64,000 nt of DNA from Desmodus rotundus. Lineage: Eukaryota; Chordata; Mammalia; Chiroptera; Phyllostomidae. Shown in pieces: positions 6,121 through 62,424 of this stretch. Location: positions 188,279,556-188,343,555 of the forward strand of contig NC_071389.1 in the NCBI RefSeq assembly GCF_022682495.2, in the 5' to 3' direction. The notes beneath the pieces were generated by a model. It was not told where the DNA came from, did no database searches, and worked only from the letters and a program-made list of their open reading frames with translations. The translations under genes and the position numbers were made by a program. Position 1 is the stretch's first letter. Every line of letters begins with the position of its first letter.

Positions 6121-6863
6121 AGCTTGATACACAGTTAACTTCTTTTTCTTTTTTTTAAATTTTGCTTTCAGTATTAGATATTGCTTCCTTCCATTTATGA
6201 AACAAGGTGTAATCAAAGAAGTCTAGCTTCTATTTCTGTTCTTCCCAGTCAATTTCTTCCCTTCCCCTGTAGATAGCTGTTTTTAAGGGTATGTTCTTAC
6301 ACTGTACTTTACTCTGCCAAATAAGTAAATATACATATGTATATTCATTATCTCCCTCTTCTTACATACACTTTGGAATAGTATACTCATTTTTTTCCCC
6401 CATCTTGTTCAAATAACATTTACAGCCAAAACCCAGAAAGTATATTTAATGTGTGGAGTGGCTGGGTGCTATTTTAATGTTTGCTATAATAGGTGGGCTG
6501 GCCTACAACAGCTCAGAAAAAGCCATATCGGCTTTTATCTCTCACCCAGACCAAATCTATCTCTAAGCTCGGCCAGTCTGAGGTCCACAGAGCAACTGAA
6601 ATCCTCTGGCTGAACGTGGGAAGTAAGTAGTCTGGCCCGGCAAGGAACTGCAGTTCTTGCCAGAAGCAGTTTCTGTGGGGGAGGAACAGCGTGCAGACTT
6701 CAATATCCCACATCACACCTTTGAGATGGGCTTAGCGTCTGAGGACCCCTCCATCTCTCACAAGGTGAAGTGGAGGGTCTCGCTAGGTGACCCACATTGG
6801 TTGTTGGGCTCCAACGATAACGGCACTTTACAACGAACGCTTCCTGGTGGTTTTGTCTTGTTT
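6121..6863. other. Intergenic sequence, nothing recognised
   Basis: AT-rich first half, then a more balanced stretch leading into the CpG island. No exon or clear repeat was recognised. Confidence 0.35.
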
Positions 6864-6889
6864 TTGTTGTTGTTGTTGTTGTTGTTGTT
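6864..6889. repeat. (TTG)n microsatellite
   Basis: About eight consecutive TTG units. The run inflates short open frames on both strands (poly-Leu/Cys one way, poly-Asn the other), which are not genes. Confidence 0.95.
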
Positions 6890-6974
6890 ATTTTTGTTTC
6901 TGTTTACAGACTCACAACAATCCCAAGCAGAGTAGACCACCAGCACCAAAGGTCTGTGTTCCAAGCAGCAAGAA

Positions 6975-7240
6975 GTTTGGCGGGGACTGGGCCGGCGGTG
7001 GGTGGAGCCAGGAGTTGGGCGGGGCCTGGATCTGGGGGCGGGGCCCAGCGGGCTGCGGGGCGGGGCGGATCTCCCCGAGGCTACGGAGCCCAGCCAGCGC
7101 AGCCGAGCCTCTTGCTGCCGGAGGATGCTTACCGCTAGGCCAACTCAGGCCCGCCGCCCTCGCGGCCCCGGAACCGGCACACCGGAGGTCTGAGCAGGAG
7201 GCTAGGAGGCCGAGTACAGAAGAAAGGAAAGGAGGGAAGG
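6975..7240. promoter_or_regulatory. CpG island with GC boxes, gene unknown
   Basis: The stretch is very GC-rich and dense in CpG. It has at least three Sp1-type GC boxes of the form GGGCGGGGC (near 7018, 7036 and 7057), all in the same orientation. This is the composition of a mammalian promoter. I cannot assign a gene: no recognisable protein is encoded on either strand and no TATA box stands out. Candidates are the first exon of a noncoding RNA, a distant first exon of TXNRD1 or of the gene on its other side, or an orphan CpG island. Confidence 0.6.
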
Positions 7241-8230
7241 GCAGGAGGTGCGAGTGGCTCGAATGGTCTGGAATACTTCCCCTTGCAAAGCGCAGGCTCA
7301 GGCGGCTCCTTTGACCGAACACCTGCCCGCTCTGGCTCCTACATCCGATTTATTTGCTCAGATTGCCTTCGGTGTATATTTCCCCTGCAGTAAAAGTGGC
7401 GTCACATCTGGGATGGAAAGAAGAGCACGGAAATTTGTCCCCTAGGGAAGGCTCTGCCAGCGGCTGTCCCGTCCTGTCTGCCGAGGCCCGAGAAGGGCAG
7501 AACCCAAACCATGGGGAAGAGCACATTAGTAGGGCACGTCCTGTACAGAATTTTATGCGGCCAGGAGAAAGGCTGACGTAGATCTAGATGTACTTATGTG
7601 CAAAGCTGTACATGGGGCGTTGATAAGTTGAAAATAATACGTATGTTCGTAAATGGTTTGGAAAGGTTCACAGTAATATGTTACCAGAAGCTTCTTGTGG
7701 GAGGTCGGGTTGGAGAGTAATTGCATCCGTGACAACGCTCTCTGTGCGAGTAAAGAAAACCCCAACTCGGAGGTACACGCGGGAGGAAACTTATTATCTT
7801 GTACAACAAGAAGCTCACGGAGAGAGGGACCCTGCGACCGATGAACTCGGCAGCTCAGGACATTGCTGGGGGCCCGGGTCCTTCCCATCTTTCTGCTTTG
7901 CCGCTCTCGGGGCGTGGGCTTTATTGTTAGGCAGCTCCTCTTAAAGTGGATGGGGGGAGTCGTTTCAGGAGAAACGCCAGAAGTTAACATCCCCAGCAGA
8001 GGAGGCCAAAGTAACCTACCTCAAGTCACCTGCCAGAAACCTATCCGTCTGGGCGTTCCCGCCACCCTCTGTCACTGGCTGGAAGCAGCCCCAGGGAGGC
8101 ACCGCCTCAGCTGCTTGGACCCTGCCCCCCCTCTCCCGCCCCGAAACAACCGCCGGCCAGGTGTGCTCCCTGCAGCTGAGCAGTGAGGGGGCGTGCTCAG
8201 GGCATTCACCAGCTTTCTCTCATTTTAAGA
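7241..8230. other. Shore of the CpG island, no gene recognised
   Basis: Moderately GC-rich sequence with a second small GC-rich patch near 8040-8170. Open frames here do not resemble any family I know and lack convincing splice context. Confidence 0.35.
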
Positions 8231-23340: not shown

Positions 23341-24099
23341 TATATGATAGGGTGTCTCAGGTAAGCACAGGACTCTCTGCCACTTTTGCCTACATATTAA
23401 AAAAAAATGGAAAAGGCATCATTTTAGTTAAATGTGTGCTTTAAATAGAGAAAAAGAAAAGACAACCCCAACTGGAATTTTGCTGACAAAATAGTAATTT
23501 TAGCATATGTTGAACAGCATGTTTTTTTTTTTTTTTAAAGTTCTCTGAAACAATCATTCCAACTGAACAAAGAAAATGTGGACCTGGCTCACAGAAGGAG
23601 AGAACTTTGCTTAGCCTTCAAAAGGTCCTGGCTTAGTTACATCAGTTACTATAATGGACGGCAAACACCTGGATGGAGGTTGTTATTAAGACTCACTTGG
23701 GCTTTGCAGTGTCTGCTTTTAAAAGGCTTTGGTTCAGCTTTTATTTGTTTTCTGTATTTAAGCAAATAAACACCCAGTATTTTTCAAGAGCATTTTGACT
23801 CTGGTTTTGCTCCCAGGAAAAGCAGGAAATAAGCTGGCCCACAAACCCAGATAAAAACCAAGGGCCTGCGCCAACGAGCACACATCTGGTGACCAGACAA
23901 GTCCTTTAAATCTCAGCTGGGACAGGAGTTCCTTAAGAGCGGGAAACCTGTGTTAGATACCCTGTAACCGGAGAACAAAGCCGGATCTGGGCTGGATGCT
24001 TAACATATGTTAATTCGTTGAAAGAAAAAGAAAAAACCCCAAAGCACAGCATTGGTAGAAAACAGTGACCCTCCCCCTCCCAACCTGATGTGGTACGCT

Positions 24100-24360
24100 A
24101 GGGTGTTGGTGTTAAAAAGTCACGCTCAGGTAGTATGGAACTTCCATTCATTACCACTGGGAGTACAGATGGGGACCGCCCTTCTGGAAAAGCCATTTGG
24201 CAATGCATAAGGAGAGCCTTAAAGCTCTAAACACAACATGTCCACTGCAACCTTATTCACAATATTTTAAAATAAGAAACAAACTGAGTACCTGACAAGG
24301 AAGATCAGGTAAGTGTAGTACAGTAGCTCTACTGGAAGGACTATTACATAGATAGGTTTA
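24100..24360 (+). mobile_element. Old LINE ORF2 fragment, probably L1M
   Basis: GCCATTTGGCAATGCATAAG, GAGCCTTAAAGCTCTAA, TGCAACCTTATTCACAATAT and TTTAAAATAAGAAACAAACT follow the order of an L1 3' ORF2 in sense orientation. It is strongly diverged. Confidence 0.5.
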
Positions 24361-24709
24361 AAACCTTTCCCCCTTCCTCCTTTTGTTCCTTCAATACTGA
24401 ACGCCTGCACTGTCCCAGGCACTGTTCTAGGCTTTTGGGTTCCGTCAAAGGAGGACAAAAGGTACTCTTCTGGAGCGGTTCGCTTTCTGGGAGGAGAGAC
24501 GTGGGAGTAGGAGACAGAGAATACATGGCAAGTCTATTAGAAGGCTGTCGGTGATATATAAAACCAAAGAAAGGTAAGAGGCGGGGGTCCAGGTGAGGGT
24601 GGGGTGAGCGGGCTTCTGTTTAAAATAGGATGGTCTGTGTTCAGTCTCATTCATTGGCCTGAGGTGAGGGTGGATGCCCTGCAGTTATCTGGGGGGGAAG
24701 ATGCTAGTA

Positions 24710-25140
24710 GACCGCTGCCTCCCCCCATCCCAAACTAGAGCGTTCCTATGAAACCTTTTATAAGCAATTACCGTTAATTGATACGAAAAAATTTTCGAGC
24801 ATTCCTACACACCCCCAAATAACCCCAAATCACACTAACATAATAGTAAAATCAGGAATGCACACAGTAGGTGTCGGTGAAGAACAGATGCTTACACACA
24901 GTTCGAAGTTGTGGCGGGTTGAGGGAAGGAGCTTGGCGAGGCCGCTCTGGGATGCTCGGGGTGCGCTGTGCCTCCGCGACGCTCACTGCAAAACAAATGC
25001 CAAGCGCTATGTTTCGTACAAGTGAAAGTCCTCTTTGAATTTATTTCAGTTAGTGAAAACACACACTATGGTAGGTCTTGGGTAAAAGAGAAGTGGCTTA
25101 ACAGGAGCCATCGAGAAGAGGGAGATACCTGTATTAAATA
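24710..25140. repeat. Unassigned repeat-like sequence
   Basis: TTCCTATGAAACCTTTTATA, ATTTTCGAGCATTCCTACAC, AAATAACCCCAAATCACACT and TAAAATCAGGAATGCACACA look like a moderately old DNA transposon-derived repeat that I have seen in mammalian genomes but cannot name. It stops just before the TXNRD1 CpG island. Confidence 0.35.
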
Positions 25141-25309
25141 AAAAACTGGGTGTAAACTATACATCGGGGGGAAAACTGGAAAATATAGAGACAGTGGTTT
25201 GCAGGATAAGATTTTGAATGATGCTTTTTATTTTTTTCCACTATACATTTTCTTACTTATCTTTGGTGAACGTGTTTAATATTTTAAAAAAATCAACGAG
25301 CTTAAAAGA

Positions 25310-25980
25310 AAAGAGAGCTGGGACCCGGGATTCCTAACGCCCGCCCCGTCCCGCCGCTCCCCTCTTCACTGCCCCCCTCTCCGCGGCTTCCCCTCCCGCC
25401 CCGCCTACCGCCCCGCGCCCCGCCCACCGCCGCGCGCCCCGCCCACAGCAGCGACCAGCAGGGGGCGCGCGGCCTCTGCGGCGAGTCCCTCGGCCTGTGA
25501 GTCCGCACAGGGCGTCGCAGCACAGGGGTCCTGCGAAGAGTAAGGAGGTGCGGGCGGCCGCACAGCCTGAGTTGGAGGCCAAAGGCCACAGGAATCGCGG
25601 CCAGGGTTCGTCAGGTACGACCGAAGGCGAAGGCCGTAGCGAGCTTCGGGCGCCCTCCAGGCGGCCCGCGCCGACGGGCCATGGTGGGTGCGGCACCCTG
25701 GGGCCTTGGTGCACTGGGCTGTCGTCGCGGGCCCGACGTGCGACCTTCCGGAGAGTCCAGAAACGGACAAGGTCCGCTCTGGGCCCCGAGGCTGCCCCGC
25801 CGGCGGAGAAAAGCGACCCCCTCAGTTTACCCAAAGAGGCGGAGGCTGGCGCTGGCCGAGGGGCTGGCCAGGTGGCTGCGGACAGGTGGGAGGTGGACGG
25901 CGGGATGCGCCGGGCCGCCCCTGCCCGGAAGATGGCGCAGAAACAAACCCGGGGGAAGCCTACGGGCTGGTGAGGGCTAC
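25310..25980 (+). promoter_or_regulatory. TXNRD1: CpG island and probable promoter of the Grx-TXNRD1 isoform
   Basis: Extremely GC- and CpG-rich DNA with several GC-box/CCGCCC motifs between 25340 and 25445, immediately before and over TXNRD1 exon 1. No TATA box is evident. The composition is that of a CpG-island promoter firing to the right. From the family's biology, the glutaredoxin-containing isoform uses an upstream promoter separate from the housekeeping TXNRD1 promoter; that assignment here is inference. High GC produces long overlapping open frames on both strands (for example on the minus strand at 25334-26062) that are not genes. Confidence 0.75.
25524..25614 (+). CDS. TXNRD1: TXNRD1 exon 1 of the glutaredoxin isoform, start codon not AUG
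   Basis: This exon encodes the N-terminal tail of the glutaredoxin-containing form of thioredoxin reductase 1, a selenoprotein flavoenzyme that reduces thioredoxin with NADPH. Thirty codons align without a gap to the start of the human long isoform as I remember it (shared motifs K-x-V-x-AAA, EL, KG, then S-A after the junction). The donor CAG|GTACGA at 25614/25615 leaves phase 1, which the next exon needs. The codon opposite the human Met1 is AGG. The frame is open upstream to a TAA at 25335, yet no ATG in any frame lies between 25338 and 25614. Only near-cognate triplets are available, such as an in-frame GTG at 25497. The isoform may use a non-AUG start, take its AUG from an unseen upstream exon, or have lost initiation. 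The left edge given here is the aligned start, not a transcription start. Confidence 0.7.
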
Positions 25981-26329
25981 CGTTGATGCAAGCACCGGGC
26001 CGCACACATATTAGAGAGGAAGGGACCCCACACCTGACTCCGCGCGGGGAATTAACCTGCACGTCTCAAAAAGCCGGGAATCCGAGCTGAGGGTGACCAA
26101 CCCCAAATCAAAGGAGGTTAAGCGCCCAAGGGAACTTGAGGCCTGTTAAACTGGAGGTGCTGGCCTGGGTGGGGTCCGTGTACCCCCTTGTCTACACCGT
26201 CGAGAAAGTTATCAGACAAACCCCTTTCCCCACCCCTTTGAACCTTAGGCGCATTTCCTACACCACTTTATCCTTTCATTTAATCGTTGAAATGAGAAAG
26301 GTGCTTACATATACTTGCCCCACTTTGCA

Positions 26330-26575
26330 GATAATGGTAATAGTGGCTAAGGGTTACCAACCTCTGTTTTAAGCACTTTACGTGGATAACCATTCCTCTC
26401 ACCAACGGCACTAGGAGAGGTTTATTGTAACCCCCATTTTTAGATGGAGAAACTGAGGCACAGAGAGGTTATGACACTTGTCCAAAGTCCCACTGCTATG
26501 AAGTGGCAGAGCTGGGATATAAGCTGAGGCAGTTTGACTCCAAAGCTCAGATCATAACAATTATACCACCATCCT
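26330..26575 (-). repeat. MIR SINE
   Basis: Long reverse MIR: CTGTTTTAAGCACTTTACGT, ATTTTTAGATGGAGAAACTG, GGCACAGAGAGGTTATGACA, AAGTGGCAGAGCTGGGATAT. Confidence 0.85.
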
Positions 26576-28990: not shown

Positions 28991-29194
28991 TACAGACATT
29001 CTAAGAACCTATCTTCCTTGGGTACCACCAACGATCCGTGCATCAAATTTAGTGTAATGCTGGATTACATGAGCTCTCAGTCCCCTCCTAATGTAAAATT
29101 ACGGGGCTAGGGTCCTGAAAGTGATTTCTCAAATGAGCAGCCTGAATCTAATGTGAGCTCTCTCACCATCTGGCCTTGATGAAGGTCTGGATTG

Positions 29195-34556: not shown

Positions 34557-35781
34557 ATGTTGTGGGCTCACTGACCCTGCCTACAAAACAGAGTATGTAG
34601 AATCCCTTCATGTCCACAAGTTCATTCCTGTCCCTGCGGTAGTGTAGGTAGCTATTAATAAAGGAATGGAGCAAAGGGAGTCAGACATTAAGAAACCTAA
34701 TCAACTGGGAAGTTAAATCGGACACTAAGCATGCTTTACTAGGAAGTTGCAGCATTCATAGGCTCCCCAGGGCACCACTGCATCAGGACCTAACCCCCAA
34801 AGTGGACGGGAAGATAAAATAGTAGGAGAAATTCCTCAGCTGAATGTATGCCCAGGAGAAGCCAAGACGGCACAGGGGGAGGTCTCTCTACTTTGAGGCA
34901 TGTGCAGTAGGAGCCAAGATGGCAACCATAAAGGCCTGTCTGTCTAGCCTAAGAAAAGGATCAGATTGGTTAAGGAATGAAGAACCTCAGAAGATCTAGG
35001 AAATGGATTGGTTAGGGGGAGGATCAAACACAAGCCTACAAGCCCGATATAATGTAATCAGCCTAACAAAGGGGCTCATTCTCGCTGTCTCACTTGGTAA
35101 CATGTGCTTGCCCTATTCATTCATGCTTTCTTTTTTTTATTTAATAAAGATTTTATTTTATTTTTAGAGATGAGGGAAGGGACGGGAAAAGGGAAGGAGA
35201 GAAATATTGATGTGAGAGAGAAACATCGATTGGTTTCCTCCCGGACGTGCCCCTACCCAGGACAGAACGCATAACCCTGGCATGTGCTCTGACTGGGAAT
35301 CGAACCAGCAACTCTTCAGTTTGTGGGGATGATGCCTAACCAACTGAGCCACACTGGTCAGGGCCATTCATGCATTCTTTCCGTAACAGTCATGGCAGTC
35401 CTAGCAGCCCAGTGGCCAGCTGCCACGCAGGCTTCAAGCTCAGGCTCCAAGTGTGAGCCTGGGTACACAATGCAGCACCAGCTGAAGTGCAGCCAGGAGC
35501 AGACTCAGCCAGCCAGACAAGGCCTGGGATCCAACCGGACCTAACCAATGGCACAGAATCTCTGGACACTGGCATTACTTCTGGGCTTGATGAAGACAAG
35601 GCTGGACTTCTTTCATGGTGGGATGGACAGGGACAGAGATGAGACACCAGAGCTGAACCCAGGACAGTCCTTTGATTTTGCTTAATAAACCTTATCACTA
35701 AACCTTATCATCCCATATGTGGGTCCCTGGAATGTTTTCCTTGCAACTCTGTGAAAGAACCCCATTTCTACCAGCAACATC
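34557..35781 (+). mobile_element. Solitary LTR-like element holding a VES
   Basis: The ends TGTTGTGGG and AGCAACA are inverted. An AATAAA signal (GCTTAATAAACCTT) lies near 35683 about 95 bases before the right end, and the text between reads like U3 and R/U5. Without the VES at 35130-35364 it would be about 990 bp. Flanks CTGAA and TCTGG are not a clean target duplication. No internal retroviral genes are present. The family is unknown to me; edges are approximate. Confidence 0.4.
35130..35364 (-). mobile_element. VES-type bat SINE
   Basis: Reverse VES with TTTTATTTTTAGAGATGAGG, TGACTGGGAATCGAACCAGC and CTGAGCCACACTGGTCAGGG. The repeated CATTCATGC at both edges is the target duplication. The GAGAGAAATATTGATGTGAG segment is the reverse of the usual tail. 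Confidence 0.9.
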
Positions 35782-37562: not shown

Positions 37563-37783
37563 AAGATTTTATTTATTTATTAAGATTTTGTTTATTTATT
37601 TTTAGAGAGAGGGGAAGGGAGAGAGAAAGAGGGAGAGAAACATCAGTGTGTGGTTGCCTCTCACATGCCTACTACCAGGGACCTGGCCTACAACCCAGGC
37701 AGGTGCCCTGAGGGGGAATCAAACTGAAGACCCTTTGGTTTGCAGGCCAGCACTCAAGTCCACTGAGCCACACCAGCCAGGGT
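37563..37783 (-). mobile_element. VES-type bat SINE
   Basis: A full reverse copy inserted in L1 copy A. The target duplication TTAATTTCATTTTA lies on both sides (about 37549-37562 and 37785-37798). Near the tail, AAGATTTT...TTTATTTATT occurs twice, an internal duplication of the A-rich end. Confidence 0.9.
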
Positions 37784-42625: not shown

Positions 42626-43849
42626 TTTGCAAAAAACAAAAAGCAGTTTGAGAAATACAAGAAAGAGGAAGCCATGCAAAGTCCTGTCATACATTTATAA
42701 CTTACACTTTTGCGTACTCCTTTTTAGGACTCGAGATGCGGTTTCACATAACTGTAAAACTGTGGTACATAGGATTTGGTATTCTGTTTGTTTTCAGTTA
42801 ACATTATGTCAAACCATTTCCATGTTGTTTTGAACCCTGAATAGTATATACAACCATTAAAATTACTGAAAAAACAAAAGCACTACCATAATTTAGCTAT
42901 GCTTCTTATGTTGGACATCTGTTGCTTCCGATTTTTTACTATAACCAGTGATGTTGTAACGAAACTGTTGGTAATAATTAGATAAAAAGAGGAGATTGAG
43001 GATTGGGAATAGGAAAGGGTGAAGTAGGCTGGAGAGCAGGGGTAGAAACTGTTTGTAACTTAGCCTTTGGAGGGGGAAAGACAGTGGAGACAAGATACCT
43101 TTGTGTCTGTCTCTGGAAAGGTGATGGACGTGTTCAGGGGGTGGGGAGTGGGGAGTGTTGGTAGTTAGGCCAGTGGCCTATTTTGTTCCATTGAGTTTTA
43201 CAGGAAGTGAACGTGATTAATCCTAAAGCTATCGAACTCACGTTGGAAAGGGCTTTTGGACATTTCCCCTTCAACTACGTAATGCTTTTTATAGTAGTAA
43301 AAAGTACTGAGTACTTTTCTTATGAGAAGAGTTGGAGGTAGGGGGTCATTTTTGTTAATAGAATGTTTTAATTATTTTAGATTTTTTTAAAAGGTAAATT
43401 CCCACAAGGGCTCCAGTTTACAAGGTATGGCTGTTTTGATGGTTCGTGATCCACACCATCACACTGTTTCCTAAAGAATAGCATTAGTTCATACTACAGC
43501 CCTCGCCCCTTGTGTCCACGGGCTCCCCTCAGTGTACGCTCACCTGCACTGGGAGTTTCCGTTTTTAATAGGTAAGAAATCACAATTCATTGCTTTAATC
43601 TGCTTTTCTGATTATGAAATAACAGTAAAGTAAGTTGACCTTTTTATTCTAGGTTTGCTGTTTTCTTCCTACTGATTTGGCTGTTCCTGTTCTTTATTCA
43701 TTTTATCATCTGTGGTCCTGCTGTTCTCTAACCAGTTTGCTTCACTTCTTTTTGTTATTTATGTAAATACTTTCCCTAGGCTGCTCTTTGGCTTTTCAAA
43801 ATATTATTATTTTGCACTTCAATTTGTTGCTCTTTTCTTTATATTTACT
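42626..43849. other. Intronic sequence, nothing firm
   Basis: Weak LINE-like text lies near 43440-43700 (GCATTAGTTCATACTACAGC). No exon was recognised. Confidence 0.3.
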
Positions 43850-44052
43850 TTTTTAGATTTTATTTATTTTTAGAGAGGGGAAAGGGAGAGAGAGAGGGAG
43901 AGAAACATCAATGTGTGGTTGCCTCTCATGCACGCCCCACCGGTGACCTGGCCCACAACCCAGGCATGTGCCCTGACTGGGAATCAAACACACAAACCTT
44001 TGGTTCACAGGCTGGCACTTACTTAATCCACTGAGCCACACCAGCTGGGGCT
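43850..44052 (-). mobile_element. VES-type bat SINE
   Basis: Reverse copy with ATTTATTTTTAGAGAGGGGA, GTGGTTGCCTCTCATGCACG, GTGCCCTGACTGGGAATCAA and ACTGAGCCACACCAGCTGGG. ATTTACTTTT at both edges is the target duplication. Confidence 0.9.
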
Positions 44053-47900: not shown

Positions 47901-48774
47901 TAGTTCTGGATATCGACTATGAAGATGATGAAATTGAAGAAGAGTGGGTAGGTCTTAGATGAACAGACATTAGAGGAAATCCCTTATGAAGCAAATCATA
48001 AGGGTAGGGTTGAGCTTGGTTTGTTTGTGGGTCCTCAAGTAGACAGTCTGAAACATTTGCGAGCCAGAGGTAGCAATCTTTCAGTGGTTTTGTCTGGTGA
48101 TGATGCCCAGGATGACAGTGCCGTCATGTGGTAATGACATGCCACTAGGCTGGATCATGTTTGTTCTGGTGCCAGATTGGGCACAGCAAAATCCCGGGGA
48201 GGGAACAGAGAATCTGAAGAAAAGTTTTGGTTTTGTTTTTTGGGTTTTTTTTTAAAGCTTGCTGTGCGTGTGGCCTGCGGGTCCCACAGATTTGCCTGCT
48301 TATCCAGCACTTAGTTGGAGAAAACAAGAGTAAGCCTTGATTTGGGTTGTGTACGCCTGTGTCTCTGAGCAGGGTTGTATGGGAAGGGGACGTAATATCT
48401 GATCTCTGGTCTGTCTGCATGTAAACTGTGGTGAGGAGTGGGCCTGGGGTAAAATATGGCCCTCGATGTCCAAGAACCTGTTACTTACTCTCCTACTTCC
48501 AAGGATGGCTCAGACTCTTGCTATCACTTGTCCGGATCCCCTGAGAACTTGTTCTGAGTGGGACTGAACGAGTTGGAAATATTGGGGGAGTTGCCCACGT
48601 CTCCAGTCAGAGGAGAGAACTGGGTGTATAATCCACGTTAGAGTCTTTCCTTGGATTGCTGGTTTTGGCCGTTGGGGCCAAAATTGTAAGGCTTTAGAGT
48701 GTGCCTAATCTTAGAAAATGCATCATCCTGTTTTCCTTTCTGGTAATTACCATCTTTGCTTCCATTACTTCTAG
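47901..48774. other. Intron 1 end, nothing recognised
   Basis: Apparently unique sequence leading to exon 2. A polypyrimidine-poor but usable acceptor region (TTGCTTCCATTACTTCTAG) closes the intron. Confidence 0.4.
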
Positions 48775-48947
48775 CTAACGATCACCTCTCCAGTCCAACT
48801 TTGCCAGAAAACCCAGCCGCTGGTGGGAGTGGCCCCTCTGGATCCACCAGCACAGCCCTCACAGACCGCGGAGCCCGGCTGCAGGCCTATATAGACGGCC
48901 ACCCCGTGGTCATCTTCAGCAAGTCCACGTGCAGACGCTGTACTGAG
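48775..48947 (+). CDS. TXNRD1: TXNRD1 exon 2, glutaredoxin-like domain with CRRC motif
   Basis: This 173-nt exon encodes the first half of the glutaredoxin-like domain of the long TXNRD1 isoform. The diagnostic segment LQAYIDGHPVVIFSKSTC is followed by RRCTE, so the dithiol CxxC is CRRC (Cys codons at 48930-48932 and 48939-48941). As I recall it, human TXNRD1 has CTRC, while the paralogue TXNRD3 has only the first cysteine (CPHS), which argues for TXNRD1. LPENPA also matches human TXNRD1. The acceptor CTTCTAG| needs one base from exon 1, which exon 1 supplies; the donor is GAG|GTAAGG in phase 0. Compared with the human protein there is an extra Gly/Ser/Pro-rich stretch of seven residues before the domain. 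There is no ATG in this frame within the exon. Confidence 0.9.
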
Positions 48948-51900
48948 GTAAGGCTTTAACCTCCAGGTCTGCTAACAAGTTGTTGAATTACAGAAATCTG
49001 ACAGACTTTTGAGCTCAGGTGTAAACAACTGGATTTCACCTTAGCACAATGTGTACGTAGGTGTAACTTGCTTCGGAATATTTCGGGAGGGTGATTTGAG
49101 GACAAAATATTGCTTGAGTCATATTTTTCTGAGCTTTTGCAAAGTACTAGATGTTTTCAGGCAGTCAGGGTCAGAGTCAGGGAAAGTAAGGTGGGGGGGA
49201 GTTTCAAACCAGGCAGTTTGCTGCTCTTTTAGCCATGTCTATAGGGAATATTTCTTAAGGAGCTGTTGCTTAGGGTACTCTGAAATTTTGATAAATATCT
49301 CTTCATGCTCTGGTTTATTGTGGGGAAGATGATTTCACAAAGAATAAACTGTGCTTCCCACTTGGTTCTTAACCTTAGATTATCAGGCAGAAAAGCTCAG
49401 GGATCACAGCCATGGGGAGGATTGGGTTAATCTACCCCGATTTAACCTTAGAACAAAGGGAAGGCGAGAGTTGAAAGACCAAGCTGTCCAGGTGCTTTAT
49501 AGGAAGGCTGAGGGCCTTTGCATGTCACTGAAGTTCAGCTTTAAATTATACTCGGGTAGCTCTGGGACTAGACACAGTGGACTCTTAAGGAAATGTAACT
49601 GGCCACCTGTCCAGGCTCCCCTGTGGGAAAATTTATTAAGTTCAGTTTTCTCTCAGCTTGTTTGTCTCTTGACTTACTTTCCAGCTCTCAGGGAGGTTTA
49701 TTTAATTCAGAAGACTTACTCTGGAAGCTGTACGTAGAGACAGGCGTTTTTGACTGTGTACGTGTTTTCTGTTTTCCCACAAAGAAAAGGGAAGGTGGGC
49801 AAGCAGCAGAAAGAGTTAAGGTAGGCAGAACCTTGCGTCTTGTTTCTCCATTGAGTGTGCTTGCGGCATCTGAGAGGCTTCTAGCCTGTTGTGTGGGACA
49901 CCTGTTAGGGGTGGAGTTGCGAAGACAAAGGAGATGCAGCTGCCCTCGCCTGGAGGTTTAGTCAAACTGCGAAGGCAGAGCAGAGGTTAAAAAGAAAAAG
50001 GACGCAAGATAACCCTGAATTCGAGATGGTGAGTGTAGGCCGTAAGTGATAGAGGATTTAGAAAGGACTGGGTGTTAGAAATCTGAGGTATAATTCCTGG
50101 CCTCTGGGGCCTAGTCATCTAGCTCTTGTGGTCTTGTCCACTTTTGAGGCTCCTCTCCCTTGTCTGTTTGATTTTTAAAGTGAGGGCCTTGGACTAGTTG
50201 ACTATTGATACTTCTTTTAGCTCTGAAATTATGTGGTGGTTCTATCTTTTCTGTTACCGAAAGTACTTAAGAGCTGGGATTCTGAACTCAGAGTTTGGAT
50301 GTTGGCTCTGTGACTTATTAGCTATGTGACCTCAATTGACTTATTTACCTGCTGTGCCTCAGTTTCCTCATCTGTAAAATGTGCATAATAATAGGGCCTA
50401 TCTTGTAAGTTTGTTGTGAGGTAAGTTCTTTAATACTTCTAAAAGCCATAGAACAGGCTGGCACATAGTAAATACTGTGTAAGTGTTTGTTAAGTAAAAG
50501 AACTACCTGCTTTTCCCTATCACAACTTAAACCTTGGATGATGATCATCCTTTCCCCAACACAGAGGCTTGGTTAGATGACAAAAAAACAACTGTCTGAC
50601 TCTGTTCCAAGTACAATTAACCCTGTTAAAGAGGGGTTACTGTTTTAAGGCTGACCTCTCCCTTCAAAGCTGCACACTCACGGTGGTATGGAAGAAGGAA
50701 TGTGTGCAATTAAAAGAGCTCGTTTCTCGTTGTGTAAATCTCAGTTTCCTTAACAACAAAATAAGGATGACTGTTGGATACCCAGCTTTATTATGAGGCC
50801 CAAATGATTTCAAATCTGTGTGGAAAACATTGGGAAGCATTCGGTACTCACTTATATTAATAATAGCTACCATATGAATGCCTCCTATGTGCCACGCATG
50901 TTTCGGTCACTTCACTTACATTTAAAACACTTTGAACTAGTTCTGCAATGAAGGTTGGGCTAGTGTGGTCAGGATTGCTACTCGTGATGGGCAGCCTGGT
51001 TTCCTGTTCCCTGCAGATCTCTTGGACCTGTGATTACTCTTATCCTTCCTATCTTGTCCCTGAATTCTTCTAATATCTTCATTTCCTAGGTGTCCTCCCT
51101 GGCTCTGAAAAGGCAAAGCCTGGCCTTTTCCTTTTTGTGTTTTACTTAATTAAATGTACTGTGGAAATGATCGACTTTTCCTAAAAAACCTGTGTCACAT
51201 ATCTACATTCTTTTTTTTTTTATTAAAAGTGTAGTTTTTCTGACAATTTTATTTATTGTCATTATCTGAATAATTCCTGGATATGCCAAGTCTTCTGGAC
51301 AAACACCGTCTGTTTTTACCTTGATAAATACCAGTTTCTTAGCTTTTCCAAATACATAATATAAAAGCTATTTTCAGATTTGTGCTAATTTGTATGGAAA
51401 TAATTTTCAATATTTTTGGCCATGAAGGATGGTTAGGTGTTTCTCTTGGTAAAATGGTGATTTCCTTCTGTGGGTGTACAATTTAGATACTTGGCTCTTC
51501 ACATTAATTTTTTTAAAAATTGCCATTAAATAGAATTTCCCCAGGCTGTTTCCTTCAGTTTTGTTTTTATCATTTCATTCAACAATTGCGAGGCGAGTAA
51601 ATGAGAATGGAGGAACTTATAAATTGTGCTTGGTCTGATTAATTGGTATTTCTCTTTGGGGTCAGTAATATAATTTTCATTAATTCAAGTTAGGAAATGT
51701 CCACAAAGAGATTACCTTCTACTTAAAGTTAGTTTCCTGCTTGTTGCATAACACACTACCCTGCATGCTTTGAATGTACCCCACTGCGAAGAGTAGGATT
51801 TAAAGTGCAAAGATAAACCCTTTCTGCCTCTTCGGAGAATGTGGTATTTGTATCTTACAGATATTTCAGTGAGGTAGGAAGCATGTAGTTAGAATTAGCA

Positions 51901-53372: not shown

Positions 53373-53433
53373 GTAAAGAAGTTATTTAAATCAATGTGTG
53401 TTCCTTATTTTTTGCTCGAACTTGATCAGGCAG
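53373..53433 (+). CDS. TXNRD1: TXNRD1 exon 3, glutaredoxin-like domain
   Basis: This 61-nt exon translates as VKKLFKSMCVPYFLLELDQA with one base over (phase 1). It continues the glutaredoxin fold directly after CRRCTE: the helix after the active site and the strand ending in the ELDQ motif common to glutaredoxins. It differs from the human exon, as I recall it, at only a few positions. The acceptor CTTCTTCCAG| and donor CAG|GTAAGA are strong. The first in-frame ATG of the three exons is the KSM codon here, after the active site, so initiation there would not yield a working Grx domain. The next exon is not in the window. Confidence 0.92.
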
Positions 53434-54314
53434 GTAAGATTCTGTTTAATATGTAAATTATATTGACTCACTGTACATTTTATTTAATTTATTCTGCCTG
53501 CTTTTATTTTTTTTCCTGAGCTTTTTATTGTTTAGTGAGCTCTTTTTTTTTTTCTCTCTACCATTCCTCTCTCTTTACCATTTAGATGGGCATTTCCCTG
53601 GGACAAATCGTGTTTACCATTAGTCTTTACTTAGTTTTATAGCCTTGGTATAACTCGGAGTTTCCTGTTGTTGCAATTATTCTTCCTATTGACTTTGAGT
53701 CTAGTTTACAGGTACAGTATTTGGTGCTTTTATGGTAACTTTATTATTTTTGTAAATTTGTCTCCTTTCTGGCAAACCATACCAAATCATATTTGAATAT
53801 AAATTGTGATGCATTCAGAAATTGTGGCAAGGACGTATAAAGACTAGTAGGGATAAAGATCCACAAGGAGCCCTGGGAAGTAGTTCATGTGGCTGGAAAT
53901 CCCAGGGAAAACAAGGTTGGTGGAGTAAAACAGAAGGCTTCCCTCTAGAGCCATGGTGTTCATGTGTTTTGATCATGGGTCAGAAAATCCCATAGACGCA
54001 TCAGTCAAACATTATTAGGAAGCTGATCAAGTGCCCAACATCATTGTTTCTATGGGAAAAATGGGCCCCTCCAGATCAAGAAGCATAGGTAATCTTCAGG
54101 CTCAGCAGCTTGGGGAAGCAGAGTCCTGGACAATTATAGTCTTAGCCCAGTCTCCAAGGGAATAAAACAACAGAGACGAGACTCAGCTAGAGAGAGTCAT
54201 GGCAATTGGGATTGAAAGCTCATTTCTAGGGTCAGGAGGAAGGTGGTAGTTGTTGAGCAGGAAACTATTTTTTGATGCTTCTGAAGACAGATTCCCTAAC
54301 ACAGAGAGAATCAA

Positions 54315-57635: not shown

Positions 57636-58199
57636 GGGTGGTTGGCTTGCTAGTAAACCCACTGGTGATTCCTGGTCCCTCCCTCTGCTTCCTCTGACTG
57701 ACTCCTCGGAACCTTTCATGCCTCACCCCACCTGCCTTAGGTATGATGTTCATAGTATTGATACTATGATAGGCGTTCCTGGATGTGACAGCGGCTGTTG
57801 TCACCGGAAGTTGTGAAATCTGCTACCATTGCCAGCTTCATCTTACCTATCCTAGTGATGAGCTGCCATTCACAGGGCTTGTTAATACATGAAGTCTTGT
57901 ATCTCGGCCTCAGGTGTCTGCCCCGTGGCTTTGATCCGAGGAACAGACGGCCTCAGTGTGCTCACCTTCATTTGGTCTGGCAGCTGCTGTCACTCTGTCA
58001 TTCTTCAGCTATCAATATGGAAGACAGTCTAAGGTTTTGAGAGGACTTGTGTGACAGTTTGCCAGAAGTGTATATCTGGATGCCACGTGTCACCAGCTTG
58101 GGGGTATCATCTTTGTTCCCTGGCTGCTTATCGATACCATGGCATTAATGCCTTCACCAAGAGGGAGAGAATCTAATGTGTAAACTTCTTTTTCTTTCC

Positions 58200-58764: not shown

Positions 58765-58982
58765 TTTTTTCTTTTTATTTAAATTTTATTTATTTATATC
58801 CAGAGAGAGGGGACACGAAGGAGAAAGAGAGGGAGAGAAACATCAATGTGTAGTTGCTTCTTGCACTCCCCCAGCTGGGGACCTGGCTTGCAACCCAGGC
58901 ATGTACCCTGGCTGGGAATTGAACTGGAGACCCCTTGGTTTGCAGGCTGGCACTCAATCCACTGAGCAACACCAGCCAGGGC
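58765..58982 (-). mobile_element. VES-type bat SINE
   Basis: Reverse copy with ATTTATTTATATCCAGAGAG, AACATCAATGTGTAGTTGCT, ATGTACCCTGGCTGGGAATT and GAGCAACACCAGCCAGGGC. AGGCTTTTC at both edges (near 58756 and 58985) is the target duplication. A MIR remnant continues to the right (58995-59105). Confidence 0.9.
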
Positions 58983-60756: not shown

Positions 60757-62424
60757 CTCTCCCACTCTAAAAGAAGTCTAGACAGAGGTAGTCTCTCCAG
60801 GGCTTTGTCTGGTATCGAGCCCTTCTATTTTCATGCTCCACAGTTCTCAGCATTTGGTCTTCCACCTGTGTTCCAAGATGGGTATCCAAACTGCAGCCAC
60901 AAGTTAGGAGAAGGGTTGAAGGAGAGCATGTCCTTTCCATTTCTGCATGTTTTCCCGAAGATGCACATGACAGTTTGCTTACATCCTGTTGGCCAGAATT
61001 TAGTCATTTAGACATAGATGCACTCTGGAAGGAGTCTGGGAAATGAAATCTTTATTTTGGGAAGTCATATGCACGCTAAAAATAAGAGTCCAGTTAGTGA
61101 TGCTAATAACATCTTGGTTTGCCTGTGGAACAGCTGAGATTGATTGGCTCATCTAAAGGGATTCATACAATAATTTCTATGTAAACCATACATTTGTTCC
61201 TTACTTAAATCATAAGTATAGAGTTATATGGTGGTAGTGAGGTGGAAAATAGTTTGCCTACTCAGTAAGGTCAATGTCTGAACACTGAACTAGAGGCCTA
61301 GTAAACTCGCTTAATGGTTAACATGGAACCCTATCAAGGGGAGTAGGAGATAATCCAGCCTCCTTCACTGCAAGACCATTTCAAGAGTTCCTGATATTAC
61401 TGAAAAATTAAATAAGCATTGTAATTCTGTAGATAAAGGTTTTCAGAAATATTTTGGTAGGGAACTACACTGTTCTCGTCTGTTTTTCAGTGGAAAAGGT
61501 GGTCTTAACATATTTACAGTTATAAATAAGACCTAGGTCACTCTTAGTTCAATTCAGGGTCTGGAGTATTAGTTGCCAACCAGGAGGAGTCAAGGCTACT
61601 TCAGGCTTGGCTCCACGAGGCGACCACCACCCTCCACAGTGACTTGTCTGGGGATTCTGCAGTTTTGGCTCTTGGATAAATTAGAAGGGAGTGAGTGTTC
61701 CTCTCAATATCGACTACCCTCAAGCAGGGTTTAAGAATTTAGAGGTTAATAATAATAATTAGCTATATGTCACTTCTTTCATTTTTTACCACTATTAATT
61801 AATACACACACAACCTCCTGGTTGGAGGTAAGGGTGGCTAAACTCGTTTTATAAGATGTGGAGAGTTTACTGCAGTAGAGCCTGTGCCTCCTGAAGCTCT
61901 GCTGGCCAGAGGTTTTCCACACGAAAAATGTTTTCTTTCCTCTGGAATTGAAATGGGACATCAAGAAACCTAAAGCAAATGGAGCGCAGAAGCGGGTATT
62001 TCTGCACATTCTAGCATGTGTACATTACATGTATATGTACATGTAATAAAGAATGCATGTACTGATTTTAGAGAACTTCCTAATGTCCTTTCCACTTCTT
62101 TTAGCAAGTTTAAGAAAATTACATTTAAAAAATCATGGGGTTTTTATTGAAGAAATAAAAAACACTTTACCACTAAAAACAAAAAATCATGTTTTTCTCC
62201 TGCCATGGAGAGAACAAACTCTGAGTAGTGAGACTGGATGGCCTGTGGAAAATGACATGCTTAGCTATAGACTGCTAATTAAAAGAAAGATGAATGAATT
62301 ACCTCCTTGAATTAAGTTTTGAATAGCGTCTAGTGTAACACATTGACGGATACTGTGAGTAACTGGTAACAAGGGAAAATCCAAACTCCTAACACATAGA
62401 GTTACACTATGCATACAGATATAA

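Follow-up and report, generated by a model that had tools for sequence, protein, structure and literature searches.

The DNA analyzed here, a stretch of 64,000 nucleotides from Desmodus rotundus (hereafter the window), is the 5′ part of a phyllostomid TXNRD1 gene and carries exons A, B and C of the rare Grx isoform. In this lineage exon A has lost both its start codon and the Cys of the Met-Gly-Cys N-terminus, and the best explanation, in our view and with a probability of about 0.6, is that the acylated Grx-TXNRD1 isoform was lost recently and in this lineage specifically. The exon letters A, B, C and E follow the excerpted text of PMC3316567, and F is a label chosen here for the first common exon. 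The features of exon A that define its frame and its missing start are the following:

25335 to 25337, + strand: in-frame TAA, the upstream limit of the exon A frame, read directly from the sequence
25338 to 25614, + strand: exon A of TXNRD1, with which the Grx-TXNRD1/v3-type isoform begins and which contains no ATG, from sequence and homology (25338 is merely the first base past the in-frame stop, not a mapped exon start)
25523 to 25525, + strand: CAG, the alternative register for the start position
25524 to 25526, + strand: AGG at the position of the start codon; the next two codons, GGT CCT, encode Gly-Pro, against Gly-Cys in relatives
25615 to 25620, + strand: splice donor of exon A, GTACGA, phase 1

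The assignment of this exon to the Grx isoform of TXNRD1, made in a preliminary description of the sequence, is borne out by homology. No stop interrupts its reading frame between the TAA and the donor (25614|GT), its GC content is 76%, and a direct count of 0 ATGs in any frame of the + strand between 25338 and 25614 agrees with what that description had stated. When exon A was simulated 5000 times with a first-order Markov model, 78% of the runs contained no ATG, as did 16% of 5000 runs for exons A and B together, so that the absence of an ATG is by itself unremarkable; the notable point is the loss of the ATG at an otherwise conserved start. The N-terminus in the window reads RGPAKSKEV, compared with MGCGKSSEV in Molossus; Arg-Gly-Pro thus replaces Met-Gly-Cys, and the start Met and the Cys of the acylation signal are both lost. 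The loss of this third-position Cys alongside the start Met is an addition to the earlier observation. Neither the AUG start nor the Met-Gly-Cys N-acylation signal of a TXNRD1_v3-type isoform is therefore found in exon A. The placement of AGG at the ATG position holds to the extent that 25524-25526 is AGG and not ATG; it is subject to a one-base ambiguity, given that the distance from a shared motif to the KSK codons is 76 nt in the window versus 75 in the dog 5′ extension. The ancestral ATG could map equally well to AGG at 25524 or to CAG at 25523, neither of which is an ATG, and the extra base would accordingly sit before or after the start; in the CAG register, the start would be frameshifted as well.

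The Cys of Met-Gly-Cys is a palmitoylation residue, and the start matters because human TXNRD1_v3 is reportedly N-acylated and targeted to rafts. Furthermore, TXNRD1 is listed in a table of myristoylated proteins in the excerpted text of PMC12952070. Conservation of this start was assessed in 38 relatives collected in two protein searches (26 + 12), with exon A present in 31 of them. Met-Gly-Cys occupies the start position in 30 of these 31 proteins, 29 of which begin with it, the dog protein having it internally in a longer N-terminus. Databases favor proteins that begin with Met, such that species lacking the ATG are under-reported and the loss of the exon A ATG may be commoner than 30 of 31 suggests; the Gly and Cys columns are less affected. 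Six of the MGC proteins come from bats (Pipistrellus, Molossus, Saccopteryx, Rhinolophus, Rousettus and Pteropus), genera that represent five families. The alignment with other bats and dog that had been proposed as a check returned MGC in six bats and dog and Arg-Gly-Pro in the window. The protein database was clustered at 90% identity, and versions from other species may be hidden within its clusters. In the aligned subset, which comprises the window and 26 of the 31 exon A proteins (the five excluded are near-duplicates that all start with MGC), MGC is found in 25 of the 26 relatives. The remaining exon A protein, from the elephant seal Mirounga angustirostris, has VGC inside a longer model, where the Val could stem from a codon change or from the way the model joins its exons. 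Unless the Val is a splice-junction product, Mirounga may be another mammal that has lost the exon A ATG, with Gly-Cys retained. The other 7 of the 38 relatives have a different or incomplete N-terminus (walrus, two macaque models, a lemur fragment, chimpanzee X2, arctic fox and mangabey); the lemur fragment begins with RGC and is otherwise unlike exon A. In a porpoise model, CKRY stands in place of CxxC.

The window occupies C3:188279556-188343555 of the 2.12 Gb assembly. Exon A is single-copy in this assembly, the one other match being a partial one of 75% that covers the GC-rich 5′ portion of the exon, and the entire gene continues on a single contig, in support of the loss reading. A retrocopy or partial duplicate is ruled out by this single-copy status together with the normal continuation of the gene downstream. 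A sequencing or assembly error as the source of the missing ATG is conceivable in a GC-rich exon known from a single assembly; nevertheless, two or more codons are altered with the downstream frame preserved, and the TXNRD1 exons succeed one another in the right order on the 202 Mb contig, making this explanation very improbable. A genome search with the full protein gave 30 matches, of which those of highest identity lie on C3, at the TXNRD1 gene, with further matches on C10 and C7, taken as TXNRD3 (checked) and TXNRD2 (inferred), and weaker ones on C5, C6 and C13, several of them with stops. No match at gathering thresholds was obtained in an Rfam search of 23500-26500, and ARAGORN found no tRNA in the window. 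A second GC-rich stretch (6800-7500; 59% GC, CpG o/e 0.67) lies about 18 kb upstream of exon A and may represent another promoter or upstream exon.

The remaining Grx exons within the window are laid out as follows:

48775 to 48947, + strand: exon B, N-terminal half of the Grx domain, acceptor TTCTAG, donor GTAAGG
48930 to 48941, + strand: Grx active-site codons Cys-Arg-Arg-Cys (CRRC)
53373 to 53433, + strand: exon C, acceptor TTCCAG, donor GTAAGA
53394 to 53396, + strand: in exon C, the earliest ATG in the spliced A-B-C-E-F message, in frame, in the weak context TCAATGT and past the CRRC codons

The cut between exons B and C was placed at 48947/53373 by the GT/AG rule; a cut at 48948/53374 joins identical bases. 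With 100 kb of downstream sequence added to the window, the gene continues with exon E, then an intron that contains EID3, then exon F and the exons of the reductase. The EID3 frame inside the TXNRD1 gene is intact (380 aa); the best two of its 602 matches are a Desmodus rotundus entry (98% identity) and one from Glossophaga mutica (96%), which places the host among the phyllostomid bats. In the genomic sequence, the A/B, B/C, C/E and E/F junctions all have GT donors and AG acceptors, and exons A, B, C and E join the common TXNRD1 exons in a frame that is open throughout, confirming the earlier view that frame, CxxC motif and splice sites are intact. The Grx frame is unbroken across 145 codons, and the encoded CxxC-containing domain is recognized as Glutaredoxin (PF00462) by Pfam (E 6e-10, 39.6 bits against a cut-off of 22.9). 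No stops, frameshifts or broken splice sites of the kind expected of rodent-like decay were found in the Grx exons, with a net gain of one base possible near the start. Exon B (48775-48947) contains no ATG, and the first in-frame ATG, at 53394 in exon C, lies beyond CRRC, both as previously described. The next ATGs of the spliced message are an out-of-frame one in exon E (GCTATGA) and the AAAATGA of exon F, which is the canonical MNGSEDLPES start and is followed by one further out-of-frame ATG.

The earlier assertion that the locus does not show simple decay is correct for the Grx domain, which is preserved, and fails for the acylation signal, which is gone. In the 27-row alignment, one of the two invariant columns of exon A is changed in the window (the Cys), compared with 0 of 14 in exons B and C (0-2 in the other rows). 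For exon E, with 19 rows including the window, 1 of 15 invariant columns is changed (Gly to Asp in GGYD; 0-1 in the others), which gives 1 of 29 for exons B, C and E combined. In an earlier set of 18 relatives the corresponding counts were 2 of 3 for exon A and 1 of 20 for exons B and C. On an assumed species tree, the exon B and C branch of the window (0.124) is similar to, and not shorter than, those of bats that keep the ATG (Molossus 0.103, Pipistrellus 0.102, Saccopteryx 0.211, Rhinolophus 0.161, Rousettus 0.059, Pteropus 0.015), as judged from these sequences. The exon A branch, computed on the same tree without the three MGC columns, is 0.13 in the window, 0.715 in Pipistrellus, 0.627 in Saccopteryx, 0.447 in Rhinolophus and 0.0 in Molossus. 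In simulations of decay under assumed parameters (kappa 4, CpG x8, 0.1 indel per substitution, 75% of them frameshifting), a frame that stayed intact while no more than 1 of the 29 invariant columns changed had a probability of 5% at a neutral divergence of 0.05 substitutions per site and of 10% at 0.04. Taken together with the intact frame, this implies that either the loss is young or the Grx domain is still used; a loss would be compatible with the data only if no more than about 0.05 neutral substitutions per site have accumulated since then. The intact Grx frame, with only 1 of 29 columns changed, counts against loss and is equally compatible with a relocated start. Recent loss, which was among the options listed at the outset, remains the best supported of them, the Grx exons showing no clear excess decay.

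Continued use of Grx-TXNRD1 from another start, by either of two routes taken together, appears unlikely, if with a real share of the probability. The first route is translation of exon A from a near-cognate codon, yielding a soluble Grx-TXNRD1, for which the in-frame candidates are:

25476 to 25478, + strand: CTG in the weak context CGGCCT[CTG]CGG
25497 to 25499, + strand: GTG in the weak context CGGCCT[GTG]AGT
25548 to 25550, + strand: GTG in the partial context AAGGAG[GTG]CGG (-3 G only)
25572 to 25574, + strand: TTG in the strong context CCTGAG[TTG]GAG (-3 G and +4 G)

From 25338 onwards no stop closes the frame, constraint on the domain is retained, and a moved start would permit the loss of both Met and Cys. 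The strong-context TTG at 25572, which also counts against loss, is the sole near-cognate of the CTG/GTG/TTG/ACG type in such a context in A-B-C; the only other strong-context near-cognate of exon A is AAG at 25542, a poor starter codon. The preliminary description fairly listed this option with GTG 25497 and an upstream CTG, but the contexts of GTG 25497 and CTG 25476 are weak and the frame ahead of the start shows no conservation relative to dog. In the Grx frame the dog 5′ extension gives a weak alignment (score 49, reached by 3.8% of shuffles), against a far better one in a different frame (score 68, with 0 of 500 shuffles as high); the third frame scores 37 (12.8%). A conserved in-frame N-terminal extension is thus unsupported. 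According to the excerpted text of PMC10055175, the paralogue TXNRD3 starts at a CUG in mouse testis, a precedent for this route; the CUG or the start codon is not mentioned in PMC9218152. The TXNRD3 Grx exon of this genome (C10, ~60.044 Mb) is intact and has a strong-context in-frame CTG (GCC[CTG]G) as well as an in-frame AUG before the active site; exon A, in contrast, has neither, and contains no in-frame CUG or GUG in a strong context upstream of the domain. On balance, a near-cognate start in exon A seems quite improbable.

The second route would join a different AUG-bearing first exon to exon B, giving a Grx-TXNRD1 that has a new N-terminus and no lipid anchor. The roughly normal constraint in Grx exons B, C and E favors it, as do the macaque, mangabey, chimpanzee and walrus models in which other first exons are joined to exon B. 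Against this, the homologues of the elephant-seal and walrus exons in the window are defective:

24135 to 24218, + strand: homologue of the 5′ exon of the elephant-seal model (match 24135-24191), with no donor
48100 to 48327, + strand: homologue of the walrus alternative first exon, with a broken frame

The walrus-exon homologue shows by eye no AUG in phase with its donor and, its frame being broken, is ruled out as a source of an AUG, as is the elephant-seal exon, which lacks a donor here and which we take to lie within an old LINE-1 fragment. The panda cassette has a weak homologue at ~29018-29080 (E 0.002), out of frame and, by eye, with no donor. The first-exon peptides of macaque and chimpanzee, which are very short, gave no credible match in the window. 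A scan of ~1-48774 (about 48.8 kb), limited to near-consensus donors, exons of up to 300 nt and sequence within the window, yielded six candidate phase-1 AUG exons, none of which combines an exact donor with a strong Kozak context. We therefore see no convincing upstream AUG exon within the window, as far as can be predicted from its sequence, and the upstream coding exon offered earlier as an explanation fails for the walrus, elephant-seal and panda homologues. This route is accordingly doubtful, somewhat less so than a near-cognate start. A specific form of continued use, in which phyllostomid Grx-TXNRD1 is still produced without the exon A AUG by a near-cognate start or an unrecognized first exon, with an anchored enzyme turned into a soluble one and the Grx domain under selection, is likewise unlikely, a little more so than the two routes in general.

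Under the preferred reading of recent loss, the disappearance of the start codon and the Cys would make it impossible to start the acylated, membrane-targeted Grx-TXNRD1 at the ancestral site. Transcripts from the exon A CpG island would supply at most a long 5′ leader, along which ribosomes would meet the weak in-frame AUG of exon C, from which a reductase would arise whose truncated Grx domain lacks the Grx active site, then the out-of-frame AUG of exon E and finally the canonical AUG of exon F. The still intact appearance of the Grx exons would, we propose, reflect how recent the loss is. A Grx-linked reductase would still be available, given that TXNRD3 keeps an intact Grx N-terminus.

In its A-B-C-E-F order, CxxC glutaredoxin domain and frame into the reductase module, the locus resembles Grx-TXNRD1 (TXNRD1_v3, Grx-TR1) of primates, carnivores and other bats, from which it differs in an exon A without an AUG and in Arg-Gly-Pro for Met-Gly-Cys. 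According to the excerpted text of PMC3316567, rodents have no Grx-TR1, fossil sequences of which remain, and the cow isoform has a changed motif. As in rodents, the isoform appears to have been lost in one lineage with canonical TXNRD1 kept; unlike in rodents as reported, the bat Grx exons and splice sites are still open, which points to a much younger event or to retained use. That this isoform has been repeatedly lost or altered across mammals raises the prior for loss. The parallel with TXNRD3 (TGR) lies in a Grx domain placed ahead of the reductase and in the non-AUG start documented for TXNRD3. No published account of a loss of the Grx-TXNRD1 start in bats was found in a search that mostly left subscription journals outside its scope. 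A bat lineage would join the mammals with a lost or altered Grx-containing TXNRD1 isoform, with the loss caught early, at a stage when the start and the lipid-anchor signal have disappeared and the domain can still be read. Should relatives confirm it, phyllostomids would be possible natural knock-outs of TXNRD1_v3; continued production of the protein would instead make them a natural case in which Grx activity is separated from membrane targeting.

Several further features of the locus concern its 3′ variants and repeats. Read-through of the exon C donor (window 53424-53456) encodes DQAGKILFNM followed by a stop, a tail nearly identical to those of short TXNRD1-like models (DQTGKFLFNM in Chlorocebus and Pan, DQAGKILLNM in Mirounga), and a conserved, Grx-only truncated isoform is possible judging from the sequence. 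Homologues of alternative 3′ tails, from short Saccopteryx and Zalophus models (after exon C) and a Molossus model (after exon E), lie downstream of the respective exons, at 57918-58036 and 60850-60942 in the window and at 75209-75253 and 77907-77981 in the joined gene. Finally, and in keeping with a yangochiropteran host, 35216-35322, 37567-37757, 43832-44022 and 58767-58957 of the window are presumably copies of a tRNA-derived SINE of the bat VES type.
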